A stretch of 64,000 nt of DNA from Chamaesiphon minutus PCC 6605 (lineage in GTDB: Bacteria; Cyanobacteriota; Cyanobacteriia; Cyanobacteriales; Chamaesiphonaceae), in contig NC_019697.1 in NCBI RefSeq assembly GCF_000317145.1, forward strand, positions 3,258,385-3,322,384, in the 5' to 3' direction. The notes below the pieces were generated by a model that ran no database searches, was not told the DNA's origin, and was given only the letters and a program-made list of their open reading frames with translations. This document shows positions 42,727 to 53,638 of this stretch, piece after piece. The first letter of the stretch is position 1. Each line of letters opens with the position of its first letter. A program made the position numbers and the translations under genes.

Positions 42727-44151
42727 CAGCAATTCCAAATTCAGATTTTGACAACTTGGTAGGGTGAGCAGGAGAATAGAGAGACTTCAAAAAGAGAAGC
42801 AGAATGGAGCCAATGAAGCTGAGTTTTGGGGTATTGATAGTCTATCTGAACCGAGCAATTCTTCAGATGAAAGATCCGCGCCTTGCCAGCAATGGCACTA
42901 AATACACCATCAGAGATGCTGTGTTGGGAGCATTTTCGATGTTTTTCATGCAAAGCGAATCCTTTTTAGAACATCAGCGGCACATGAATAGCAATCAGGG
43001 CAAAAGCAATGCTCAGACACTGTTTGGCATGATTAAAATCCCAACAGTGCCGCAAATTCGGAATATCCTGGATGAAATTTCAGCCACAGCACTATTTGGA
43101 GTATTCAATCACGTCTATCAGTCTTTAAGACGAGAAGGTCACTTGAAACCGTTTGAATATCTCGGTGGATTACTAGTTGCGCTGGATGGAACTCAGTATT
43201 TTGACTCGCACAAACTCAACTGTAAATGCTGTTCGAGCCGTACCCACAAAAATGGCACAGTAACTTACTTCCACAGTGCCATTTTGCCTGTAATAGTTGC
43301 GCCTGGGCAATCTCAAGTAATTTCCTTAGCTCCAGAATTCATCACACCTCAAGATGGTCACCAGAAGCAGGACTGCGAAGTGGCAGCAGCTAAACGATGG
43401 CTCAAAACTCATGCCCCAGAATTCCAAGGACAAGCAATCACTCTACTCGGAGATGACCTCTACAGTCACCAACCAATGTGTGAACAGGTGATAGCGTCGG
43501 GAATGAACTTTATCTTTACCTGTTTAGAAACGTCTCATACTGCTGTTTATGATTGGTTGAAATACTTGGATGGTATTGGCGAGGTGAAAAAGCTAGAAGT
43601 GAAACAGTGGAACAGCAATTCAAGCGAATTATATAGCTATCAATATGTGAATGGAATTCCTCTAAGGGACTCCCAGCCAGCAATGAAGGTCAATTGGTGT
43701 AAACTAATCCATACCCGCCAATCAGATGGAGAAATATTATATGAAAATTCATTTATTACCCGCCATGAATTAAACGAACAGAGCGTACCTCTGGTTGCTG
43801 CGGCTGGTCGATGTCGTTGGAAGACCGAAAATGAAAATCATAATGTGCTCAAAACAAAGGGATATCATCTGGAGCATAACTTTGGGCATGGTCAGCAGCA
43901 TTTAGCTGCTTGTTTATTGACGCTGAACCTGTTGGCATTCCTTTTTCACACTGTTTTGCATTTAACAGATCTTGCATATGGACAGATTCGTCTCAAGCGT
44001 GTTACTCGTAAAGGCTTTTTTCAAGATATCCTCAGTCTTACCAAATATTTACTCTTTGAGAGTTGGCCTTCTTTGATTGATTTCATGCTTTACGGCTCGG
44101 CTTCCACTCTGGTCGCCAACTCTTCCTAGATTTTTGAATTTGGAATTGCTG
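42727..44151 (+). mobile_element. Insertion sequence with 441-aa DDE transposase (1425 bp)
   Basis: Perfect 17-base inverted repeats bound the element: CAGCAATTCCAAATTCA at 42727-42743 and its complement at 44135-44151. No target duplication is seen. The left flank is an ISAs1 fragment (ending GATTGTG) and the right flank is the 3' part of a SIR2 gene (starting GTTTATC), which suggests a deletion or recombination at this element. It carries one intact transposase. Confidence 0.88.
42804..44129 (+). CDS. DDE transposase, 441 aa
   Basis: The protein reads as a full transposase: an N-terminal region with LFGMIKIPTVPQIRNILDEI, a first catalytic Asp in GLLVALDGTQYF, a second in AITLLGDDLYSHQP, and a terminal AGRCRWKTENENHNVLKTKG with the likely catalytic Glu. 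HLAACLLTLNLLAFLFHTVL follows. A CKCCSS cysteine cluster lies near residue 137. The family could not be fixed and it may belong to a not-classified group. ATG 42804 or 42813 starts it. Its last codons overlap the end of the truncated SIR2 frame on the other strand. Confidence 0.88.
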   Translation: MEPMKLSFGVLIVYLNRAILQMKDPRLASNGTKYTIRDAVLGAFSMFFMQSESFLEHQRHMNSNQGKSNAQTLFGMIKIPTVPQIRNILDEISATALFGVFNHVYQSLRREGHLKPFEYLGGLLVALDGTQYFDSHKLNCKCCSSRTHKNGTVTYFHSAILPVIVAPGQSQVISLAPEFITPQDGHQKQDCEVAAAKRWLKTHAPEFQGQAITLLGDDLYSHQPMCEQVIASGMNFIFTCLETSHTAVYDWLKYLDGIGEVKKLEVKQWNSNSSELYSYQYVNGIPLRDSQPAMKVNWCKLIHTRQSDGEILYENSFITRHELNEQSVPLVAAAGRCRWKTENENHNVLKTKGYHLEHNFGHGQQHLAACLLTLNLLAFLFHTVLHLTDLAYGQIRLKRVTRKGFFQDILSLTKYLLFESWPSLIDFMLYGSASTLVANSS

Positions 44152-45354
44152 GTTTATCTCATGGAGAGTTGACAAACATTCGATTGGAGCGGATTTTTGC
44201 AGCCTTGGTAATAATTGAGATTGAATCAATCTCGATACCCATTTATCTGTGAAAATCCAAATTCGAGTTCTTAAAGCATGAGGACAAATTATAAAATCAG
44301 GATATGCTTCTCGACAGATTTTCCAGTTCTTGATAAGGTCTTGAATTTCCTCAAGATTTAATGAGTGGTGCGAGATATGTGGATTCGGATTTTTCCATGA
44401 TAAAGGTGTAAACTTTATTTCTGGAAAACTAGGAAGATCGATACTTGGCTCCCATTTTTTAAAATCTTTCGCTACTGGCGGCTCTGGCCAATCCAGCCTA
44501 CTAGATGGTTCACCTTGCATTAAACTCAACAAAAACCATTCAATTGCTCTGGCATGTCGAATATTTCTGTCTGGGTATTCAGTGATAGTGAATATAGGAG
44601 AAAGATCTATCGTTACAATACTTTTAGTTGCTAAAAGTTGCTTTTGCGACGCGGATAGATTAAGTAATCCACATAGATAAATAGGCGGAGTTGAATCACC
44701 CAAATTATCTTTAACCCAGCCAATCCAGTTGAGGAAGTTTGGATCGTCTCCTGAAAATCCAATCAAGCAAAAAATATTTTCCATGATGGACTGCTGAACA
44801 GTATTCACAAATGGAGCAAATTTTTTTGGGTAGCTACGATAATCCTCTTCTGTAAAAATAAATGGTCGATGCGAAGGGAAACCACCATGCAGCTTAACTA
44901 TTCTTGGCTTCATCCTGCCTGGAAGATCGGAGTGATTTAAGACCGTATCATACTTACGATCGTAAATAAAGGGCGTAGCTCGCTCCAGCAAAGTATCATA
45001 ATTAGTAGTGAAAACATCAGACCAGGGTAATGACAATAGTAGCTTATGCAGTTTATCAGGCTGATATTGAAGATCTGGAATGAGTGATATTAATAGATCG
45101 TCTAAACTTTGTCTACCAAATACGACTTCATATTCACTACCTAAGCGAATAACGTCAGAATTCTTCGACCCCAAGCGTGTTTGAAGCTCGCCAACTAAAT
45201 CATTCCATAGTGGAAATGGCGGTGCAGTCGGATAAACTTTTACAGCATTGCGGCTAAAGCCAGAACCGATCATCACGGAAGCTTGTCCTATATCTCTGCC
45301 ACACCAGAGCCGTTCGCGAATTCGGTTGATGTGAATTTGGTCTGGTAGCAACAA
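44083..45354 (-). CDS. SIR2-domain protein, 3' end cut off by an insertion sequence
   Basis: A SIR2-like NAD-binding domain fills the N-terminal 260 residues. It has MIGSGFSRNA (NAD-binding GSGxS) near 28-37, WSDVFTTNYDTLLERA near 111-126, IVKLHGGFPS with the catalytic-type His, and LIGFSGDDPNFL. In bacteria such proteins are often NAD-degrading antiphage effectors with a large C-terminal sensor region. Here the last 16 or so codons (KSRKSWRPEWKPSRKA) are read from the insertion sequence. The natural 3' part is gone. The start is TTG behind a strong AAGGAG; no ATG is available. Probably inactive or altered. Confidence 0.82.
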   Translation of the reverse strand: MLLPDQIHINRIRERLWCGRDIGQASVMIGSGFSRNAVKVYPTAPPFPLWNDLVGELQTRLGSKNSDVIRLGSEYEVVFGRQSLDDLLISLIPDLQYQPDKLHKLLLSLPWSDVFTTNYDTLLERATPFIYDRKYDTVLNHSDLPGRMKPRIVKLHGGFPSHRPFIFTEEDYRSYPKKFAPFVNTVQQSIMENIFCLIGFSGDDPNFLNWIGWVKDNLGDSTPPIYLCGLLNLSASQKQLLATKSIVTIDLSPIFTITEYPDRNIRHARAIEWFLLSLMQGEPSSRLDWPEPPVAKDFKKWEPSIDLPSFPEIKFTPLSWKNPNPHISHHSLNLEEIQDLIKNWKICREAYPDFIICPHALRTRIWIFTDKWVSRLIQSQLLPRLQKSAPIECLSTLHEINQQFQIQKSRKSWRPEWKPSRKA

Positions 45355-45687: not shown

Positions 45688-46965
45688 CTATTTTCCTGCG
45701 GCATCCCATGTAGTGGCCGCACTAGATAAAGCTTGTTCTACGGTTTTTTCGCCTAACATGGCTGCTTGGAGATCTTCATAGATCGCTTTCTTGAGCACAT
45801 CGAGATTCTTGAGTGGGGGGATCAGAATTTCCGATTGGGCTAATTGCTGCGCGCTAATCGATTTGCCCCGATCGAGTGCGGATTTATCTTTACTGGCTGC
45901 TAGTTTATTAATATATTCTTTCACTGCTGTGACATTAGAAGGCAACGTATCAGAAGCTTCGGCAAAAGCCAATTGATTGCTAGCGTTAGTGATGAATAGC
46001 GCGAACTTAACTGCGGCATCGGGAGTTTTGGTAGTGCGAGGAATGACTAGATTCATGACAGCGACCCCTTTTTTGCCATTGGTGCCGGATATTTGGGGAG
46101 CCACCGACGAGACTTTAGCAACTTGAGGCGCGTTTTTGGCGATCGTATCGATAAACGGTGCCCCAGCCGAGAGCATCGCCGTCTCACCAGCTTGATAGAG
46201 TTGAATGCCCTGTTGATGCCCCTGAGTGAGGGCTTCCTTGGGCAGCAAGCCCTGTCGATATAGATCTACCCAATAGGCAAAGGCAGCTTTACCCGCAGGG
46301 GTATTAAAGGCCGCCTTGCCCTGCGGATCGACGAGCTGAACGCCCATTTGCACTAGCGATTCGAGGACATCGTTACTATCTTCAGGCACAAAGGTGGTAA
46401 AGAAGGCATATTTACCTGTCTTTTCTTTGATTTGCTTGGCAACTTGGGCTAATTCTTGATAAGTACTTGGCGGTTTGGTAACGCCTGCTTTGGTAAATAG
46501 TTGTTGATTGTAGATCGTCACATTAGTTGTCAGATACCACGGCAAACTAAAAGCTTTGCCATTGAGCGTACCAGCCTGCCACATACTCGGTACGTACTGC
46601 TTATTTTCGCCCTTAGTTAAGACAGAATCCAAATCCAACCAGGCATTTCTAGCGGCTAATTGAATGGCAAAATCGGGATTGAGATTGACGACATCGGGCG
46701 CAGTTTTCGCGCCCATCGCCGCTTGGATCTTGCCTTGCATCGCTCCCCAGGGCACATCTACCCAGTGGACTTTAATACCTGGATTGGCCGTTTCAAATTT
46801 ACCGATCGCGTCTTTAAAATAGTTGTTAAACTTGGGTTGAAGCTGCATTGTCCAAAATTCCAACTGGGGAGTTTTTGGAGATTGGAAACAACTGACAACT
46901 CCAGTGAGGATCAGTCCCAACAAAAAACAGATCGGGAAACGACGAAAATTAGCAATCTTGACCAT
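45688..46965 (-). CDS. ABC sugar-type substrate-binding lipoprotein (family 1)
   Basis: A signal peptide ends in the lipobox LTGVVSC (Cys at about residue 26), so the mature protein is lipid-anchored. The rest is a family 1 extracellular solute-binding protein: FETANPGIKVHWVDVPWGAM, KTAPDVVNLNPDF, LPWYLTTNVTIYNQQLFTKA. The substrate is probably a sugar or sugar derivative. No permease or ATPase gene is adjacent, so it must work with components encoded elsewhere. ATG 46965 is preferred to the upstream TTG. Confidence 0.92.
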   Translation of the reverse strand: MVKIANFRRFPICFLLGLILTGVVSCFQSPKTPQLEFWTMQLQPKFNNYFKDAIGKFETANPGIKVHWVDVPWGAMQGKIQAAMGAKTAPDVVNLNPDFAIQLAARNAWLDLDSVLTKGENKQYVPSMWQAGTLNGKAFSLPWYLTTNVTIYNQQLFTKAGVTKPPSTYQELAQVAKQIKEKTGKYAFFTTFVPEDSNDVLESLVQMGVQLVDPQGKAAFNTPAGKAAFAYWVDLYRQGLLPKEALTQGHQQGIQLYQAGETAMLSAGAPFIDTIAKNAPQVAKVSSVAPQISGTNGKKGVAVMNLVIPRTTKTPDAAVKFALFITNASNQLAFAEASDTLPSNVTAVKEYINKLAASKDKSALDRGKSISAQQLAQSEILIPPLKNLDVLKKAIYEDLQAAMLGEKTVEQALSSAATTWDAAGK

Positions 46966-47045
46966 TAGCACGAGCAACCCTCGATCGACACTCAGGTATT
47001 ATCGGCGATTTGGGCGATCGCGACTAGGGGTATAAAAACAGAATC

Positions 47046-47093
47046 ATGCCCTACGTTATATTATTTATATTGCTAGATCTGAAGATCCCTTGA
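47046..47093 (+). other. 15-codon leader frame overlapping the next start
   Basis: ATG 47046 opens a short frame, MPYVILFILLDLKIP, whose TGA (47091-47093) overlaps the TTG start of the cytochrome b-like gene as TTGA. This arrangement would allow coupled translation of a gene that has a weak TTG start. There is no proof of expression. Confidence 0.35.
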
Positions 47094-47803
47094 CTAAAAA
47101 GATCGCCCAATTCCTTCCATATCAGCCGCTCCTGCTCCGGATTTTGCATGGCTCCACGGGGCTATTTCTCATTGCCGCCATTCTGAGTGCCTATTGGACT
47201 TACGATACTTACGATCGACGCTGGGGTGGCTTCCTACCCATTTACCAAGACATCGAAGGCATCCACGGCACCTTTGGTCTATGGACTTTGCTGATATTTC
47301 CAGCATTTGCGATTTACGCCTTCCATCGGGGACAACGGCGGTTAATTCAGCCGGACTCTTTGGGTAAGCTGGCTCAGGTGGGTAGACCGATCTGGTGGTA
47401 CACCCTCAGCCGCATCACTAATACCCTAGCCCTCGTCGCTTTGACCTTCGCCCTGTTCAGCGGCAAGATGATGGACGATACCTGGCTACCCAAGGGGGAA
47501 TTAACCCATTTCTGGTACTACGCCCATTTAACTTCATGGGTAATAATGGTAAGCGCGATCGGTCTCCACCTGCTGATGAATGCCAGAGTCGGTGGCGCAC
47601 CGCTATTACTTTCTATGCTGACTTGGCAGTTCCGCGATAAGGATCGTCCAGCCCTCTGGCTGGCTCATCTTTCCCAGTGGCGATCGGGTGTTCGGCAGGG
47701 ATCGTGGACGAGGTGGTTTCAACCACTAACGGCAACGATCGTCTTAGAGATTGCGATTTTAGTAAGTATTATGGCTGCTTGGATTATTCCTCTGCTTCAT
47801 TAG
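47090..47803 (+). CDS. Cytochrome b/b6-like membrane protein
   Basis: A 237-residue protein with about five membrane helices and spaced histidines: LLRILHGSTGLFLIAA near 15-30, IEGIHGTFGLWTLLIF near 54-69, HFWYYAHLTSW near 140-150 and AIGLHLLMNAR near 155-165. The pattern fits a small b-type cytochrome. The start is TTG 47090; no ATG is in frame upstream. Its last codon and stop (CAT TAG) are supplied by the IS4-family element inserted at 47798. Before insertion the end would have been PLLK and stop, so only one residue changed. Confidence 0.82.
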   Translation: MTKKIAQFLPYQPLLLRILHGSTGLFLIAAILSAYWTYDTYDRRWGGFLPIYQDIEGIHGTFGLWTLLIFPAFAIYAFHRGQRRLIQPDSLGKLAQVGRPIWWYTLSRITNTLALVALTFALFSGKMMDDTWLPKGELTHFWYYAHLTSWVIMVSAIGLHLLMNARVGGAPLLLSMLTWQFRDKDRPALWLAHLSQWRSGVRQGSWTRWFQPLTATIVLEIAILVSIMAAWIIPLLH

Positions 47804-49282
47804 TGACAAGTTAAGAAGCGATCGCACTTGTCAAGCGGGCTTGAGGCGATGAGTCGAAGAAAAAATTGTCTGTTCGACTCATAGAATCAGGAAAAGGTGC
47901 AATAATTAACTTAACATTAGGTTTACGAACAGTTTTAACAATACCTAAATCTTGATTCTCTGGGGCAGCAAAATAGGTGACTGGATTGGCAGCTAAACCT
48001 TTATGATGAGCTACATGAAAGTGATAAAGACCTCGATAAATCATCTCTAAAGAAATGCGGTCGAATGGGAGAGATAATTCATCAGCTACAGCATCACCTA
48101 AATCGACTAGAACTGCATAAAACAGCCAAGTCCCCCACATCTGTAATTTAATTCCATTAACTGAACCAGTCCATAAATAACTCAACCCGAGCAATCGTTT
48201 AACAGTATTAAAAGCCTCTTCAATTCGCCACCGTCTTCCGTACAAATCGGCGACTACATAGGGAGGAAGATTCAATGGGTCGAGTACACTAGTTAGATAA
48301 GAATACCAGACTTTACCCACTTTAATTTCGACTAATCTTACAGTTATATATGGAGTCTTTTTGGTGCCAGACCCCATCCGCACTATTCGGTCACGGATAC
48401 TATAACTATTGCTAAATACTCGCTCTATCTGTAGCGATGCACCTTTTTTTAATCGAGTAATAAAATGAATATCTCTGTTAATTAATTCTTGCCAAAATTG
48501 GAAATGATAGAAGCCTCGATCCAAGAGCAATAAAGTGCCCGATGTTACTAAATTCAGGATATCTTTCTCAAAATTAACATCTGAAGCTTTGGGATTTTCT
48601 CTAAACCAGATTTCAATCGGCAATCTCGTCACCAAATCTATGACTACTCCCATTTTTCCCGCTAGTTGTCCGATTGGCACATCAGATAAGCTATCTAATT
48701 TCTTGAATATCGCTTCCAATGTGGAGCCATCACATGCCCAAATCCGCTCAAATTTTGCTTGAGCAAATTCAATGCTTTGTGGCAACAATCGCTGTTTTCT
48801 CTGGTGCCACTTCACTCTAAATTCTGGCAGTAATTCCTTAAACACTCTCTCAAATAACTCAGATGGAAAGGTCAGAAATCTTTGTGCAATCGCCTGTTGA
48901 CTTACTTGTGTTGGCTCACACCACAAAAATCCTTACTCGCCCTAACATTCGGCTTAGTTCTCTGACTCCTGGCACATTCCGCCACAGTAGCGTCAGCACT
49001 GCTGCCATCATCAAGGGTAAATTTAACAGCCGATTTCTCAGCCCTAATTGTCGGTAGTAATGACTTTGATTGAAAATTGCTGGTGTCAATAAAGCCTCTA
49101 CTTGAGCGGCGATGATCTCATCTTCCACACCTGGTTGGTGGTTCTTTTTGGCGTGGTCGCGGTTACTTCTTCGGCGGCTGGTCATCAGGCCTCTATTCCC
49201 TCAAACTCTTGACTAGAAACAGTTTGGCATCTTTTTATTACCCTTTTGACAAATCTCTGATTTTCTTAACTTGTCACGAATG
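47798..49282 (-). mobile_element. IS4-family insertion sequence, copy 2 (1485 bp)
   Basis: The inverted repeats are the same as copy 1 (CATTAGTGACAAGTTAAGAA and CATTCGTGACAAGTTAAGAA). A 9-bp target duplication, CCTCTGCTT, lies at 47789-47797 and 49283-49291. It is nearly identical to copy 1 at 28206, in opposite orientation. It landed in the last codons of the cytochrome b-like gene. Confidence 0.95.
47811..49185 (-). pseudogene. IS4-family transposase, frameshifted (copy 2)
   Basis: It is the same transposase as at 28303, but a T inserted in GCGAGTAAGG (about 48932) shifts the frame after codon 85 and ends the first part at 48916. From 48926 to the end the frame is open and complete through both Asp motifs and YREK. 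This copy has an intact 3' part and a broken 5' part, the mirror of copy 1. An intact protein would be about 458 residues. Confidence 0.9.
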
Positions 49283-49489
49283 CCTCTGCTTAAGTAGCAG
49301 CTTTAGCAAACAGGAGAAAGAGTAGACTTGGGGAAAATGTCAGCATTTTTTAACTACCCTTTACGATCTACCCTCTTCCATGGAAATTATTGCTGATGGA
49401 GAAAACCTCCTTGAAGTATGGAACATTAACCACATGGCGATTTATTGCCGCTGTTATAAAATTACAACAGGTAGGGTTGAATACGCACA

Positions 49490-50602
49490 ATGGAAAAAAC
49501 AGCAGCTCGCATTTGCGATCCAAACAACATCCAGATCTCGCCATTGAAGTTAGAAAATGAAGGCTCGATCGCCGACTTTATTGGGGCTAAGATCGCGATC
49601 GAAAGGCTCTCGCACGGTGATAACAAAGAAGACGATGGTAAGATCTCGAAGCTTGTAGACTTGGGTCGGATGCCTATGCTCGTGCATGGTGTCGGCGTGT
49701 ACTATCGACGTTTTTTTGACCTAGACTGCGACCTTTTCAACCGGATCTCTACAGAGCACGCATTCCAAACCCTCACGGAGTCTAATAAACCTGGGAAGGC
49801 TCATCGCACGGGAATCTATCTTACACCCGTCACGCAAGAAGGTGAAGATCTGCACTTTCGCCTGCTCAGATGTTCCACAAACCTATCGGGGCCAACCGAG
49901 AACTTTCGCAAAACCGACAGGTACATCGTCGATGCTCTGAACCAGAAAGCAGCATTTATCTTCCAGCACCAGGCACCGCTCAATCACGTCCTAGCACAGA
50001 TTTACCATAACACCCCCGCTGCCGCTGCCAAAAAGCAGTCCAAAGCCAAGATCTCTGCACACGCAGACAAAACCAAGGATATGCCTGTAAATGGCATCAT
50101 AGCTTTCTGCACCTTCTACGATCGACTCGATAAGCTAAGTCCTCTGACCGAGGATGCCTTTGATTACGGATATAAAGGTACCAGCGGGCTGACCAAGCTC
50201 CACTTTCGGCTCAAAGAGTCGGTTGCAGCACTGCCCGAACACAAAAACCTTCCCCGTCAGTTTGCATTGACCTTGTATCCTAACTCTGTGTTCTTCATAC
50301 CGCTGTCTACCAATCGGTTATATACGCACGAGATCCGGTCGTCGATGCTGGATGCCGAATTGCTCCCAACCCGATTGGGTTATGTGGTTCGCTGTTCGAG
50401 TACTGAAGCGGTTCACCAGAACGGTCATACTTTCCTCAAGCGGGACGGAAAGTTAGTGCCGCTAGAATCACCGACGATCGAAGGCATTGATGAGCTGCGA
50501 AAGCTGTATACAGACGAGAATAATACCCCGGATTTCATCGATTATGGCGATCGATTTCTGTTTAGTATGAATGCAGGAGATTACCTTGCCCCCCGCATCT
50601 AA
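49490..50602 (+). CDS. Divergent AlkB-like 2-oxoglutarate/Fe(II) dioxygenase (370 aa)
   Basis: No named family was recognised, but the residues of a 2OG-Fe(II) oxygenase are in order. H191 and D193 lie in AHADKTKDMPVNGI. H280 lies in STNRLYTHEI after a strand PNSVFFIPL. R301 lies in LGYVVRCSST, the AlkB-type 2OG-binding Arg. Residues 61-160 form a domain (MPMLVHGVGVYYRRFFDLD) ahead of the core. Such enzymes hydroxylate or demethylate nucleic acids, proteins or small molecules; the target is unknown. The next gene overlaps it and has the same motif set. The start ATG is clear. Confidence 0.78.
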   Translation: MEKTAARICDPNNIQISPLKLENEGSIADFIGAKIAIERLSHGDNKEDDGKISKLVDLGRMPMLVHGVGVYYRRFFDLDCDLFNRISTEHAFQTLTESNKPGKAHRTGIYLTPVTQEGEDLHFRLLRCSTNLSGPTENFRKTDRYIVDALNQKAAFIFQHQAPLNHVLAQIYHNTPAAAAKKQSKAKISAHADKTKDMPVNGIIAFCTFYDRLDKLSPLTEDAFDYGYKGTSGLTKLHFRLKESVAALPEHKNLPRQFALTLYPNSVFFIPLSTNRLYTHEIRSSMLDAELLPTRLGYVVRCSSTEAVHQNGHTFLKRDGKLVPLESPTIEGIDELRKLYTDENNTPDFIDYGDRFLFSMNAGDYLAPRI

Positions 50603-51386
50603 ACTAACCGATGAGCTTCGATCTTATACCTTGCCGATTCTCCAAAGGAGCAGCGGAGCCAACGCAGACAACCCGTTCGAGGAGTTGCGGGCATCGGTGC
50701 GGTTTGAGAATGTGGGCAAAGGTCGGCAGGGAACGGTGCTGACAAAGATCGACGAGACAGGTAACATCCCGCTCGTTCGCACTACCACCAGATACAGCAT
50801 CCCAGCGCAACGCTTTCAATCGGTACACGCTCGGCTAGCACGGCAGATTCAGACAGTTGCGTCGCTGGCGGTTGGCTTTAACAACGCTCTCATCGAAAAC
50901 TACACGAACGCTTACACTACCATGGGCAGTCATTCCGACCAAGCTCTGGATTTAGCAGACGAATCGTCGATCGCGATTTTCTCGTGTTACAAATATCCCG
51001 ATCTCGCAAACCCGCCGAGGAAGTTGATTGTCGAATTAAAGGAGCCTGGTGACGATTTCATCGAGATCCCCTTAACTCACAATAGTGTCGTAGTGTTCGA
51101 CCTTGACGCCAATCGGCGGCTCAAACACAAGATCGTGATGGACAAATCCGTCCAACCGCCAGAGAATCAATGGCTGGGTATCACCTTTAGAACTTCAAAG
51201 ACCTTTGTACGGTTTCGCGACGAATCTGCCTACTTCCCGGACGATACGCGGCTGACGTTGGCTAATGACGAGCAAAGGCAAGAGTTCTACCATCTGCGGC
51301 ATCGAGAAAATAACGAAACGGACTTTATTTACCCGCAGATTACTTACACCATCAGCGAGAGCGATCTGATGCCACCCGAACTCTGA
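50571..51386 (+). CDS. Second AlkB-like 2-oxoglutarate/Fe(II) dioxygenase (271 aa)
   Basis: The Fe(II) and 2OG residues are visible: H121 and D123 in YTTMGSHSDQALDL, H186 in DANRRLKHKIVM after VVVFDLD, and R207 in WLGITFRTSKTF. The N-x-Y..G..H.D arrangement is AlkB-like. The frame overlaps the preceding gene by 32 bases. TTG 50586 has AGGAG six bases upstream and may be the real start, giving 266 residues. The two genes are surely cotranscribed. They look like diverged paralogues that may form a heterodimer or work one after the other; this is inference. Confidence 0.78.
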   Translation: MQEITLPPASKLTDELRSYTLPILQRSSGANADNPFEELRASVRFENVGKGRQGTVLTKIDETGNIPLVRTTTRYSIPAQRFQSVHARLARQIQTVASLAVGFNNALIENYTNAYTTMGSHSDQALDLADESSIAIFSCYKYPDLANPPRKLIVELKEPGDDFIEIPLTHNSVVVFDLDANRRLKHKIVMDKSVQPPENQWLGITFRTSKTFVRFRDESAYFPDDTRLTLANDEQRQEFYHLRHRENNETDFIYPQITYTISESDLMPPEL

Positions 51387-51605
51387 ATCTCAAATCTCTA
51401 TGGCTAGATCGCGTCAAAAGCTCTACAAACAAAAATGAATCCGAATATAAAGCGACCGAGATAAAAGAGATCGAGATAAAAGGTCATACTGTCGATCGAC
51501 ACTCAGGTACGATCGACTGTTTCGGACGAGCTTCCCACCCTCCAAAATGAGATTGCGTTACAATTCTTATCATTAGCTGATATCTGATTATCCTCGCAAA
51601 ACATC

Positions 51606-52481
51606 ATGACAGTTGCCTACCCTCGCAAATTCAACAACAGTCTCAGTGCCAGAGAGATTCTCAAACGCGTAGTTAGCGATCGAGAAATTCACCTCATTAC
51701 CCTCAATCGCTACCGCTACAACGAACAACGCAGTTGCAAAGATCTGACCGAATTAATCGAGCAGCTCAATGGCAACCCGCCAGAATTAATTCGCGATCTA
51801 TCCCATCACGTCAATGATGAATCTCGTCATGCCATGTGGTTGACAGATTTGCTCGTAGATCTGGGTGGCCCTCTGGATACCCCACCAGGTGTATCGTACA
51901 TCGATGAATTCAATCGGTTAATCGATCGCGAAACCTACACTACCGCAGAAGATGGTGTCATTGCCGCCCTAGCTGCAATTAATGTCACCGAAAAACGCGG
52001 CTGTGAGTTTTTCTCAGCTCACATTCACGCCCTCAAAGCTGCGCCTCAAACTGAAGAAAATATCAAGATCCGCGAAACGATCGAGAAAATTTTCCCAGAA
52101 GAAACCGGACACGTCCGCTGGGGCACCAGACAACTAGCTAAAATCGCAGCTAAAAGTCCCGCTCATCGCCAAAAAGTCGAAATAGCCAAACGTAAGTTTG
52201 TCGCGATCGAACAAGCGGCATTTGAATCGGGGATGGACATCATGTTTGGTGCCGAATTACGCCGCGTCAATAACTTAATGGATGTCGTCAACACTCTACC
52301 GCTATGGGAGCGTCCTCAATACCTGATGGCGCGCCTACCCGAAACCCTTCTCGATCCCGAACTCCAAAAAGTCCGCATGACTGCCGCTCAAAAAGCCTGG
52401 GATCGCGATCCGCAAGCTTTTGTGACTAAGTTTATTCCGATGTTCTTGGGGAATGGGGGAATTGGGGAAAGTAGGTTTTAG
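51606..52481 (+). CDS. Ferritin-like di-iron protein
   Basis: A 291-residue, mainly helical protein with spaced Glu/His motifs of a ferritin-like di-iron site: LSHHVNDESRHAMWLTDLL near 67-85 and IFPEETGHVRWGTRQL near 167-182, with Glu residues on other helices (DREIHLITLNRYRYNE near 26-41). The family is cytoplasmic and can be an oxidase, hydroxylase or oxygen sensor. The exact reaction is unknown. It follows the two dioxygenase genes by 219 bases on the same strand. The start ATG is clear. Confidence 0.82.
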   Translation: MTVAYPRKFNNSLSAREILKRVVSDREIHLITLNRYRYNEQRSCKDLTELIEQLNGNPPELIRDLSHHVNDESRHAMWLTDLLVDLGGPLDTPPGVSYIDEFNRLIDRETYTTAEDGVIAALAAINVTEKRGCEFFSAHIHALKAAPQTEENIKIRETIEKIFPEETGHVRWGTRQLAKIAAKSPAHRQKVEIAKRKFVAIEQAAFESGMDIMFGAELRRVNNLMDVVNTLPLWERPQYLMARLPETLLDPELQKVRMTAAQKAWDRDPQAFVTKFIPMFLGNGGIGESRF

Positions 52482-52612
52482 GCTTTAGGCTTTAGGCTTT
52501 AGGTTTTCAATATTGAAGACGCCAGCGTCTTGTGAGTAGGTCGAGCAAATACACACAGTGGTTCCAATATCTAAAGCCTAAAGCCTAATCCCTAACATCT
52601 AAAGCCTAATTA
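52477..52612. repeat. TTTAGGC heptamer runs in opposite orientation plus a hairpin
   Basis: About four copies of TTTAGGC start inside the ferritin-like stop codon (52477-52506). Complementary GCCTAAA copies lie at about 52571-52609, up to the rhodanese stop. Between them AAGACGC/GCGTCTT (52516-52531) forms a tight hairpin. Together these can fold into a long stem between two convergent genes and may act as a two-way terminator. Confidence 0.6.
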
Positions 52613-53430
52613 GAGATCCAATCACTCCAACTTCCTGGATACAACTTGGCTCCTTTGATGCCAGCTAGCTCTAGAGATAATAAATTCACACAAGCCGTCA
52701 CTCCCGAACCGCAGTAAACTATCGGCTCGACATCGGGTGAAATTGCCGTCCAGCGTTGTTGATGTTCGGCGACGGATAAAACGAATCCTTCGGGATTTGT
52801 CACACCTTGCCAGGGATAATTGACAGCACTGGGGATATGTCCGGCTACCGGATCGATCGGTTCGGTTTTGCCGAGATAGCGATCGGGTTCGCGGGAGTCG
52901 ATGAGGATATGCTTGGCTGAATGTTGAATGTCTTTAACTCGATCGATGTCCACGATCCATTCGGTTCTAACTTGTGGCTTAAAATTACCAGGAGCGGACG
53001 CTGCTGGCAACTCGGCAGTCACGGTAAAGCCAGATTCGACCCAATTACTATAACCACCGTCTAGTACTGCGACTCGATCGTGACCGTAATATCGCAACAG
53101 CCACCACAACCGCGCCGCAAACCCCAAGCGCGAATCATCATAAGCAACGACTAAAGTATCGGGATTAATCCCCATCGTTGCTAATTTGGCTCCTAAGACG
53201 CGATCGTCTGGCAAAGGATGTCTGCCACCACGAACCCCAGCCGGACTCGATAAATCGCGATTTAAGTCCAAATAATGAGCTTCCGGCAAATGTGCCGCTG
53301 CATACTGTTGTCTGCCCAAATCTGGATCTGCCAACGCAAATCGACAATCGACGATCGTCAAATTGGGATTCGATCCGGTAACTAAATAACTATGTAGCAA
53401 CTCTGCGGTGATGACAGGAGAACTTAGCAT
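52606..53430 (-). CDS. Thiosulfate/3-mercaptopyruvate-type sulfurtransferase (rhodanese)
   Basis: Two rhodanese domains are fused. The first has TIVDCRFALADPDLG and LVVAYDDSRLGFAARLWWLL (inactive, Asp in place of the active Cys). The second has HILIDSREPDRYLGKTEPID and the active loop IVYCGSGVTACVN with the catalytic Cys. It moves sulfur from a thiol donor to a thiophilic acceptor. ATG 53430 was chosen. The longer frame adds 16 residues (QKGFTNPQSPIPNPI) made by GATTGGGG heptamer repeats. Confidence 0.93.
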   Translation of the reverse strand: MLSSPVITAELLHSYLVTGSNPNLTIVDCRFALADPDLGRQQYAAAHLPEAHYLDLNRDLSSPAGVRGGRHPLPDDRVLGAKLATMGINPDTLVVAYDDSRLGFAARLWWLLRYYGHDRVAVLDGGYSNWVESGFTVTAELPAASAPGNFKPQVRTEWIVDIDRVKDIQHSAKHILIDSREPDRYLGKTEPIDPVAGHIPSAVNYPWQGVTNPEGFVLSVAEHQQRWTAISPDVEPIVYCGSGVTACVNLLSLELAGIKGAKLYPGSWSDWISN

Positions 53431-53638
53431 TATGGGATTGGGGATTGGGGATTGCGGATTGGTAAAACCTTTTTGCATTATGCAGTCGATAGATCGAGTC
53501 AGGAGCAGTTGCTTAAATCGGGATTGAATCTCTGAAGACGATCGACAACCTGGCCACCGATAACCATCATAAACTTAGAGACGATCGCAAACAGAGATAA
53601 CACAGAGCCTCAAGTCCAATCCCCAATCCCCAATTCTC
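53431..53638. repeat. Opposed GATTGGGG/CCCCAATC heptamer repeats in spacer
   Basis: GGGATTGGGGATTGGGGATT (53434-53453) ahead of the rhodanese gene and CAATCCCCAATCCCCAATT (53617-53635) after the response regulator are complementary short tandem repeats of the cyanobacterial heptamer type. They bracket an otherwise empty spacer of about 150 bases. Confidence 0.5.

Follow-up and report, generated by a model that had tools for sequence, protein, structure and literature searches.

A conserved pair of AlkB-like genes, split or fused, in Chamaesiphon minutus PCC 6605 and other bacteria

A stretch of 64,000 nucleotides from the genome of Chamaesiphon minutus PCC 6605, here called the window, contains two overlapping, diverged genes with residues typical of Fe(II)/2-oxoglutarate (2OG) oxygenases, which raises the question of whether their products form one enzyme and on what it might act. 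Both open reading frames (ORFs) were found where the initial annotation had placed them and are named P1 and P2 in this study.

49490..50602, + strand: P1, AlkB-like 2OG/Fe(II) oxygenase subunit, 370 aa, with H191, D193, H280, R295 and R301
50586..51386, + strand: P2, AlkB-like subunit, 266 aa from TTG 50586 (271 aa from ATG 50571)
H121, D123, H186, W201 and R207: key residues of P2, numbered from ATG 50571
50575..50602, + strand: putative coupling junction, with AGGAG at 50575-50579, the P2 TTG at 50586-50588 and the P1 TAA at 50600-50602

The P2 ORF spans 50571-51386 and offers two candidate starts, ATG 50571 and TTG 50586. TTG 50586 is the start kept across homologues, with AGGAG six bases before it, in agreement with the AGGAG-TTG start first noticed inside the overlap. 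Because the homologues back this TTG, the genes overlap by 17 bases; the 32 bases originally reported apply if P2 begins at ATG 50571.

P2 adjoins P1 in 82 of the 83 distinct P1 loci that were compiled, and the one exception (L095) lies at a contig edge. Cyanobacteria and streptomycetes are among the hosts, as are Nonomuraea, planctomycete metagenome-assembled genomes (MAGs) and one gammaproteobacterial MAG. Because P1 was the query that brought up most of the 83 loci, P2 genes standing alone would go unnoticed among them. Peptide patterns of P2 found eight loci in a contig collection with one genome per species (84,980 species), all eight with P1, and in a plasmid collection the P1 and P2 queries matched the same three records (two Embleya, one Nonomuraea). 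Occurrence of each protein alone, which had been named as an argument against a two-part system, was thus not the pattern in either collection, and the adjacency of the pair in several phyla, together with its fusion in four loci, supports the earlier proposal of a dedicated two-part module.

The distribution of the pair is patchy. Counting the seed, the P1 profile matched 71 of the 394 Streptomycetaceae genomes, and 70 of these 71 are represented among the 83 loci (G689, in three fragments, was left out). In the planctomycete phylum two of 246 genomes matched, one being the seed and the other a weak match that spans 49 positions. Within the window's phylum, a single P1 query matched three of 292 genomes, and a P2 query matched three of 60 near relatives, the window's own genome included both times. 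With the P2 profile, the class to which the Streptomyces seed belongs gave three matches in 296 genomes, none of them new relative to the P1-positive set, and the phylum of the gammaproteobacterial seed gave three in 200: the seed itself plus weak partial matches in G1325 and G1329, which stand outside the pairing counts. No match was found in 50,697 phage records, and pattern scans of IMG/VR gave no relative. Eight of the 71 streptomycete-family genomes are irregular, with in-frame stops in G337, G410 and G665 and partial or split matches in G453, G478, G490, G524 and G689; some of these are perhaps assembly faults. The genome of C. minutus also contains the remnant of a second P2 copy (L004; G000:C1:375846-376004, - strand), which corresponds to residues ~133-184 at 68-69% identity and has no P1 in the locus retrieved.

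The residues HxD...H...R occur in the same order in P1 and P2. H191, D193, H280 and R301 of P1 are invariant in a 13-row alignment (A1), as are H121, D123, H186 and R207 of P2 in a 14-row alignment (A2). Over all loci, P1 keeps HxD and the second His in 83/83 copies and both Arg residues of the terminal R-x5-R (R295 and R301 in the window) in 82/82 readable copies; P2 keeps HxD in 82/82 copies, and its second His and last Arg (R207) in 81/81 readable ones. For the four fused loci (L010, L012, L014 and L015) the P2 residues were taken from the alignment, and for L045 from its sequence, as these frames span both genes. Loss of HxD or Arg in homologues, which would have spoken against the first reading of the locus, was therefore not encountered at the positions noted in any readable copy. 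The two proteins differ at one place. The first position of R-x5-R in P2 is Trp (W201) in all 81 complete copies (76 by pattern and five read individually; L046 is truncated and L095 lacks P2), and the terminal motif reads RLGYVVR in P1 and WLGITFR in P2, with Arg aligned over Trp in both the profile and the joint alignments. The first Arg of R-x5-R, Arg204 in AlkB, is the 2OG anchor. The full 2OG/Fe(II) residue set that had been ascribed to both proteins is thus complete in P1, whereas P2 has the metal ligands and the last Arg but not the first. The joint alignment places the metal-binding residues of P1 and P2, and also their last Arg, in shared columns. Two AlkB-like proteins encoded elsewhere in the host genome (L133 and L134) end in RISLTLR and RISLTFR, and their last Arg shares this column; their first Arg was assigned by spacing, since the aligner put gaps between. 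A passage in PMC8508711 terms the last Arg (Arg210 in AlkB) distinctive of the AlkB family.

Profile comparison of A1 with A2 (hhalign) gave a probability of 95.8 and an E-value of 6.8e-9, with 26% identity over 233 columns that include the C-terminal tails. The sequences are indeed very different, as first described, and are homologous nonetheless. The further remark that neither protein matches a nameable family is corrected here: both come near the AlkB family by profile and fold matches. Window P2 matches the Pfam family 2OG-FeII_Oxy_2 (PF13532) with an E-value of 4.7e-6 and 27.4 bits, under the gathering cut-off of 31.2, and window P1 has no relevant family match in Pfam and other searches. 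PF13532 matches all 14 aligned P2 members at E<=1 (best 2.8e-9) and, weakly, five of the 13 P1 members (best 3.3e-4). The closest solved structure to P2 by sequence is human ALKBH2 (profile, E 0.0036), with HxD aligned to HxD. Judging from these comparisons, P1 and P2 are paralogues and remote relatives of the AlkB family.

The AlphaFold models were weak, both for the fused protein of L010 (pLDDT 53.0, pTM 0.36, 16 sequences) and for P1 of L006 (pLDDT 51.4, pTM 0.44, 18 sequences). Because of this low confidence, only fold-level matches were used. Foldseek ranked Tpa1/OGFOD1 at the top for the fused model, with E-values of 1.2e-6 to 6.2e-6 at a TM-score of only 0.15-0.23 (0.15-0.18 for Tpa1, E 1.2e-6) and an rmsd >23; ALKBH2/3 followed, from E 1.1e-5 and with a target TM-score of about 0.57, and the two-cupin protein pecan vicilin also fell below E 0.001. 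For the L006 P1 model, ALKBH2, ALKBH7 and FTO were the top matches (best E 0.0041, none <0.001). These matches support the fold alone, and no interface or active-site geometry. The two ordinary AlkB-like genes of the host exceed the Pfam cut-off, with 98.5 and 92.1 bits as against 27.1 for P2. AlkB has the motif R-x-N-x-[TS]-x-R. This motif was tried as an AlkB pattern and discarded, since it has no match in the L133 and L134 frames, which end in R-x-S-x-T-x-R. The AlkB-like domain of L133 (G000:C1:5081211-5081720) sits in an open frame of 490 aa, which may hold a second domain.

On this basis we lean towards the view that P1 and P2 are the halves of a single Fe(II)/2OG oxygenase of the AlkB family, whose most likely substrate would be a methylated or alkylated base. 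The two ordinary AlkB-like genes already present in the genome count against this view. A separate question is whether the window copy still works.

49590..49606, + strand: site of an in-frame 114-bp deletion in window P1, at a TCGCGAT repeat

That the window copy is a decaying relic and the locus inert in C. minutus PCC 6605 appears doubtful. The deletion has cost window P1 an N-terminal stretch of 38 residues that is retained in the other 12 rows of A1 and falls within the part where the L006 P1 model has its best local confidence; the P2 remnant L004 also fits decay. Against this, both window frames are open and dN/dS relative to L005 is low (0.165 for P1, 0.106 for P2). The motif YLCGD, gone with the deletion, is present in 63 of the 83 P1 copies and was not found in that form in 19 others besides the window's, indicating that the N-terminal region of P1 tolerates change.

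The surroundings of the pair were analyzed for clues to its function. In the window, the pair lies between the following features.

47798..49282, - strand: insertion sequence (IS) element, flanking and outside the module, with a DDE_Tnp_1 transposase at 47811-48926 and 20-nt terminal inverted repeats
51606..52481, + strand: neighbouring DUF455-related (ferritin-like) protein, E 1e-7, 32.2 bits, below the cut-off of 34.3

The inverted ends of the IS element are 95% complementary, its transposase ORF overlaps a smaller ORF, and its right end is 207 bp upstream of P1. The IS element and the di-iron protein thus flank the window pair as first described, but neither travels with the pair elsewhere. 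No Rfam match was found at 46900-53600 of the window. Farther off, at 44083-45354 (- strand), lies a SIR2 protein of 423 aa whose match covers the N-terminal third of the anti-phage protein DSR2 (PADLOC E 3.9e-133, profile positions 12-356 of 1222). Its end coincides with the beginning of a transposase-like ORF (42804-44129, + strand) that has no Pfam match; inspection by eye of the ORFs at 37-43 kb revealed no remainder of DSR2.

Outside the pair itself, any common protein family was present in at most six of 42 flanked loci. The seven commonest ORF families, found in 11 to 42 loci each, have 358 members, of which 344 overlap the pair itself. Selected neighbours examined with Pfam and PADLOC belong to unrelated families that differ by locus, and nothing common was found among them beyond one subclade of four divergent Streptomycetaceae loci (L119, L121, L122 and L123) with common surroundings. 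The common neighbours in this subclade include a PhyH-like 2OG protein (L122:4806-5915) and an FUSC_2 protein, and most of the ten scanned have no Pfam family. Beside the planctomycete copy L007, a sigma-54 activator (L007:8903-10471, - strand) matches RtcR-type CARF models over its AAA/HTH part in PADLOC and has GAF domains by Pfam. Assignment of a function through guilt by association was dropped, given that no neighbour family exceeds six of the 42 loci. Synonymous divergence (dS) between three cyanobacterial and two planctomycete MAG loci was 0.43 to 1.02, and among the cyanobacterial loci it was 0.44 to 0.76. Such low divergence across phyla points to a recent horizontal transfer, provided that the MAG contigs have been binned correctly. 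dN/dS was 0.11-0.29 for both genes in all 20 comparisons over these five loci. The P1-P2 module would be horizontally mobile and self-contained.

These surroundings bear on the possibility that the pair is a tailoring enzyme, in which one or both subunits hydroxylate a metabolite or peptide. 2OG oxygenases commonly tailor metabolites in streptomycetes, and the pair is concentrated in this group, as the share of P1-positive Streptomycetaceae genomes given above indicates. A terpene synthase adjoins the L011 copy, and the PhyH-like protein is among the common neighbours of the four-locus subclade. Nevertheless, we consider a tailoring role unlikely: no family beyond the pair recurs in more than six of the 42 loci, the annotated neighbours change from locus to locus, and the profile and fold matches are AlkB homologues and, for the fused model, protein hydroxylases. 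Rather than a biosynthetic role, we favour, with modest confidence, the repair or editing of modified bases, from the family resemblance and from the pair's habit of occurring as a lone cassette.

P1 and P2 form a single open frame in L010, L012, L014 and L015, with lengths of 695, 678, 683 and 656 aa, respectively, from the first start codon. The hosts are all non-actinobacterial: an Obscuribacterales MAG (L010), a gammaproteobacterial MAG (L012) and two members of the window's phylum (L014 and L015). In a midpoint-rooted tree of 80 of the 83 loci (L046, L095 and L096 were left out as partial), the four fused loci cluster together. L045 was not counted as a natural fusion, since an apparent one-base deletion before the P1 stop, possibly a sequencing error, joins its frames. 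In L018 (Nonomuraea) the C-terminus of P1 is missing and the frames are offset.

Two further accounts concern how the halves might share the work. In one, the pair would be a new tandem AlkB-type class with two unequal metal centres, in which P1 oxidises with 2OG and P2, whose iron site is intact but whose first arginine is absent, acts on the substrate of P1 in a further step that is driven differently; we regard this as a rather long shot. In the other, P1 and P2 would be two oxygenases that act independently from one operon, without forming a complex. The Fe ligands kept by both proteins in all readable copies agree with independent action, and translational coupling needs no contact between products, yet P2 is adjacent in all but one of the 83 loci and the two are naturally fused in four, which makes this account improbable.

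The junction between the genes was compared in the loci that contain the motif MNxGDY, 74 split and four fused (L018, L045, L093, L094 and L095 are without it). A start codon in the P2 frame stands at one fixed place within the end of P1 in 73 of the 74 split loci (TTG 51, GTG 16, ATG 6), whereas all four fused loci are without one there. An embedded P2 start is likewise seen in L093 and L094, and the junction exception, L092, has neither a start codon nor GGRG at the fixed place. The P1 residue encoded at the embedded start varies (V, L, R, I, D, G, S). In actinobacterial P1 genes, the codon at this place ends in T in 68 of 69 cases, as against 6.9% of P1 codons (binomial p = 5e-78, a value that ignores the relatedness of the loci). 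The Gly-Asp codons upstream of the P2 start read GGAG or GGGG in 72 of the 74 split junctions, and GGA makes up 52 of the 69 junction Gly codons, compared with 268 of the 2,352 Gly codons at other positions of actinobacterial P1. Three of the fused loci likewise have GGAG, which there has to be explained by the protein motif alone; the start codon is consequently the stronger sign of coupling. By these sequence features, the embedded start with its GGAG or GGGG looks like translational coupling of P1 and P2. A programmed +1 ribosomal frameshift at CCC-C near the end of P1, which would yield a P1-P2 product lined up with the natural fusions and was suggested by CCC-C at the same place in the first nine split loci, was rejected as highly improbable once 74 junctions were compared, because CCC-C is found in only 52 of them as against 73 with the P2 start codon, and L053 has extra bases between the genes.

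From the pairing, fusion, homology, residue pattern and conserved embedded start observed here, we infer coupled translation, a heterodimer, a division of labour and a substrate for the two-half AlkB-family oxygenase that we prefer. Duplication of an AlkB-like domain would have given rise to P1 and P2. In split hosts, ribosomes finishing P1 would start P2 at the codon within the last codons of P1, keeping the subunits in step; in fused hosts, both halves would be made as one tandem polypeptide. P1, with the metal-binding HxD...H and both arginines, is most likely the predicted oxidising half. P2, with its metal ligands and second Arg but Trp at the first, is probably a partner domain in which the use of 2OG is altered or lost, and it may help to shape the substrate site, by analogy with what has been suggested for the second double-stranded beta-helix (DSBH) domain of Tpa1/OGFOD1. 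The most likely predicted substrate, by family resemblance only, is a methylated or alkylated base in a nucleic acid or nucleotide; modified nucleobases are a guess.

Among the literature matches listed in searches on AlkB pairs, heterodimers, AlkB surveys, tandem DSBH domains and the host, with subscription journals and bioRxiv outside the scope, the pair is undescribed. PMC3265494 lists the bacterial groups ALKBH2_HighGC, ALKBH13 and ALKBH14, and P1 or P2 may be among them. According to a passage in PMC4396695 (2015), the uS12 hydroxylases were then the sole 2OG oxygenases identified with tandem DSBH domains. If the preferred reading is true, a bacterial AlkB-type tandem that keeps both metal sites and comes both fused and split would add a second, different case. 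The constant difference of Arg and Trp would offer a direct test of a 2OG domain that changes or loses its cosubstrate and yet stays with its partner, and the presence of P1 in 71 of the 394 Streptomycetaceae genomes makes the module frequent enough for a gene-deletion study.

In sum, the pair can be set beside three known systems. Like AlkB, ALKBH2 and ALKBH3 (PF13532), both P1 and P2 have the HxD...H metal site and the Arg distinctive of AlkB, and N-x2-L-x3-Y precedes HxD in the pair and in the AlkB-like proteins of the host. Unlike them, the two proteins occur as a constant pair or a tandem, the first Arg of R-x5-R is absent from P2, window P2 falls below the Pfam cut-off, and window P1 has no relevant match. 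P1 also has an N-terminus about 95 residues longer than that of P2 in the joint alignment. With the host's own AlkB-like proteins, P1 shares the HADKT motif (L133) and the terminal R-x5-R (L133 and L134), and both of these proteins, unlike P2, exceed the Pfam cut-off. The fused members may resemble the prolyl hydroxylases OGFOD1, Tpa1 and Ofd1 in having two such domains per chain, and OGFOD1 and Tpa1 took the top Foldseek rank for the fused model, at a low TM-score. The C-terminal DSBH domain of OGFOD1/Tpa1/Ofd1 has no metal site, as a section of PMC4396695 states. P2, in contrast, keeps HxD...H, and the pair is AlkB-type, bacterial and mostly encoded by two genes.
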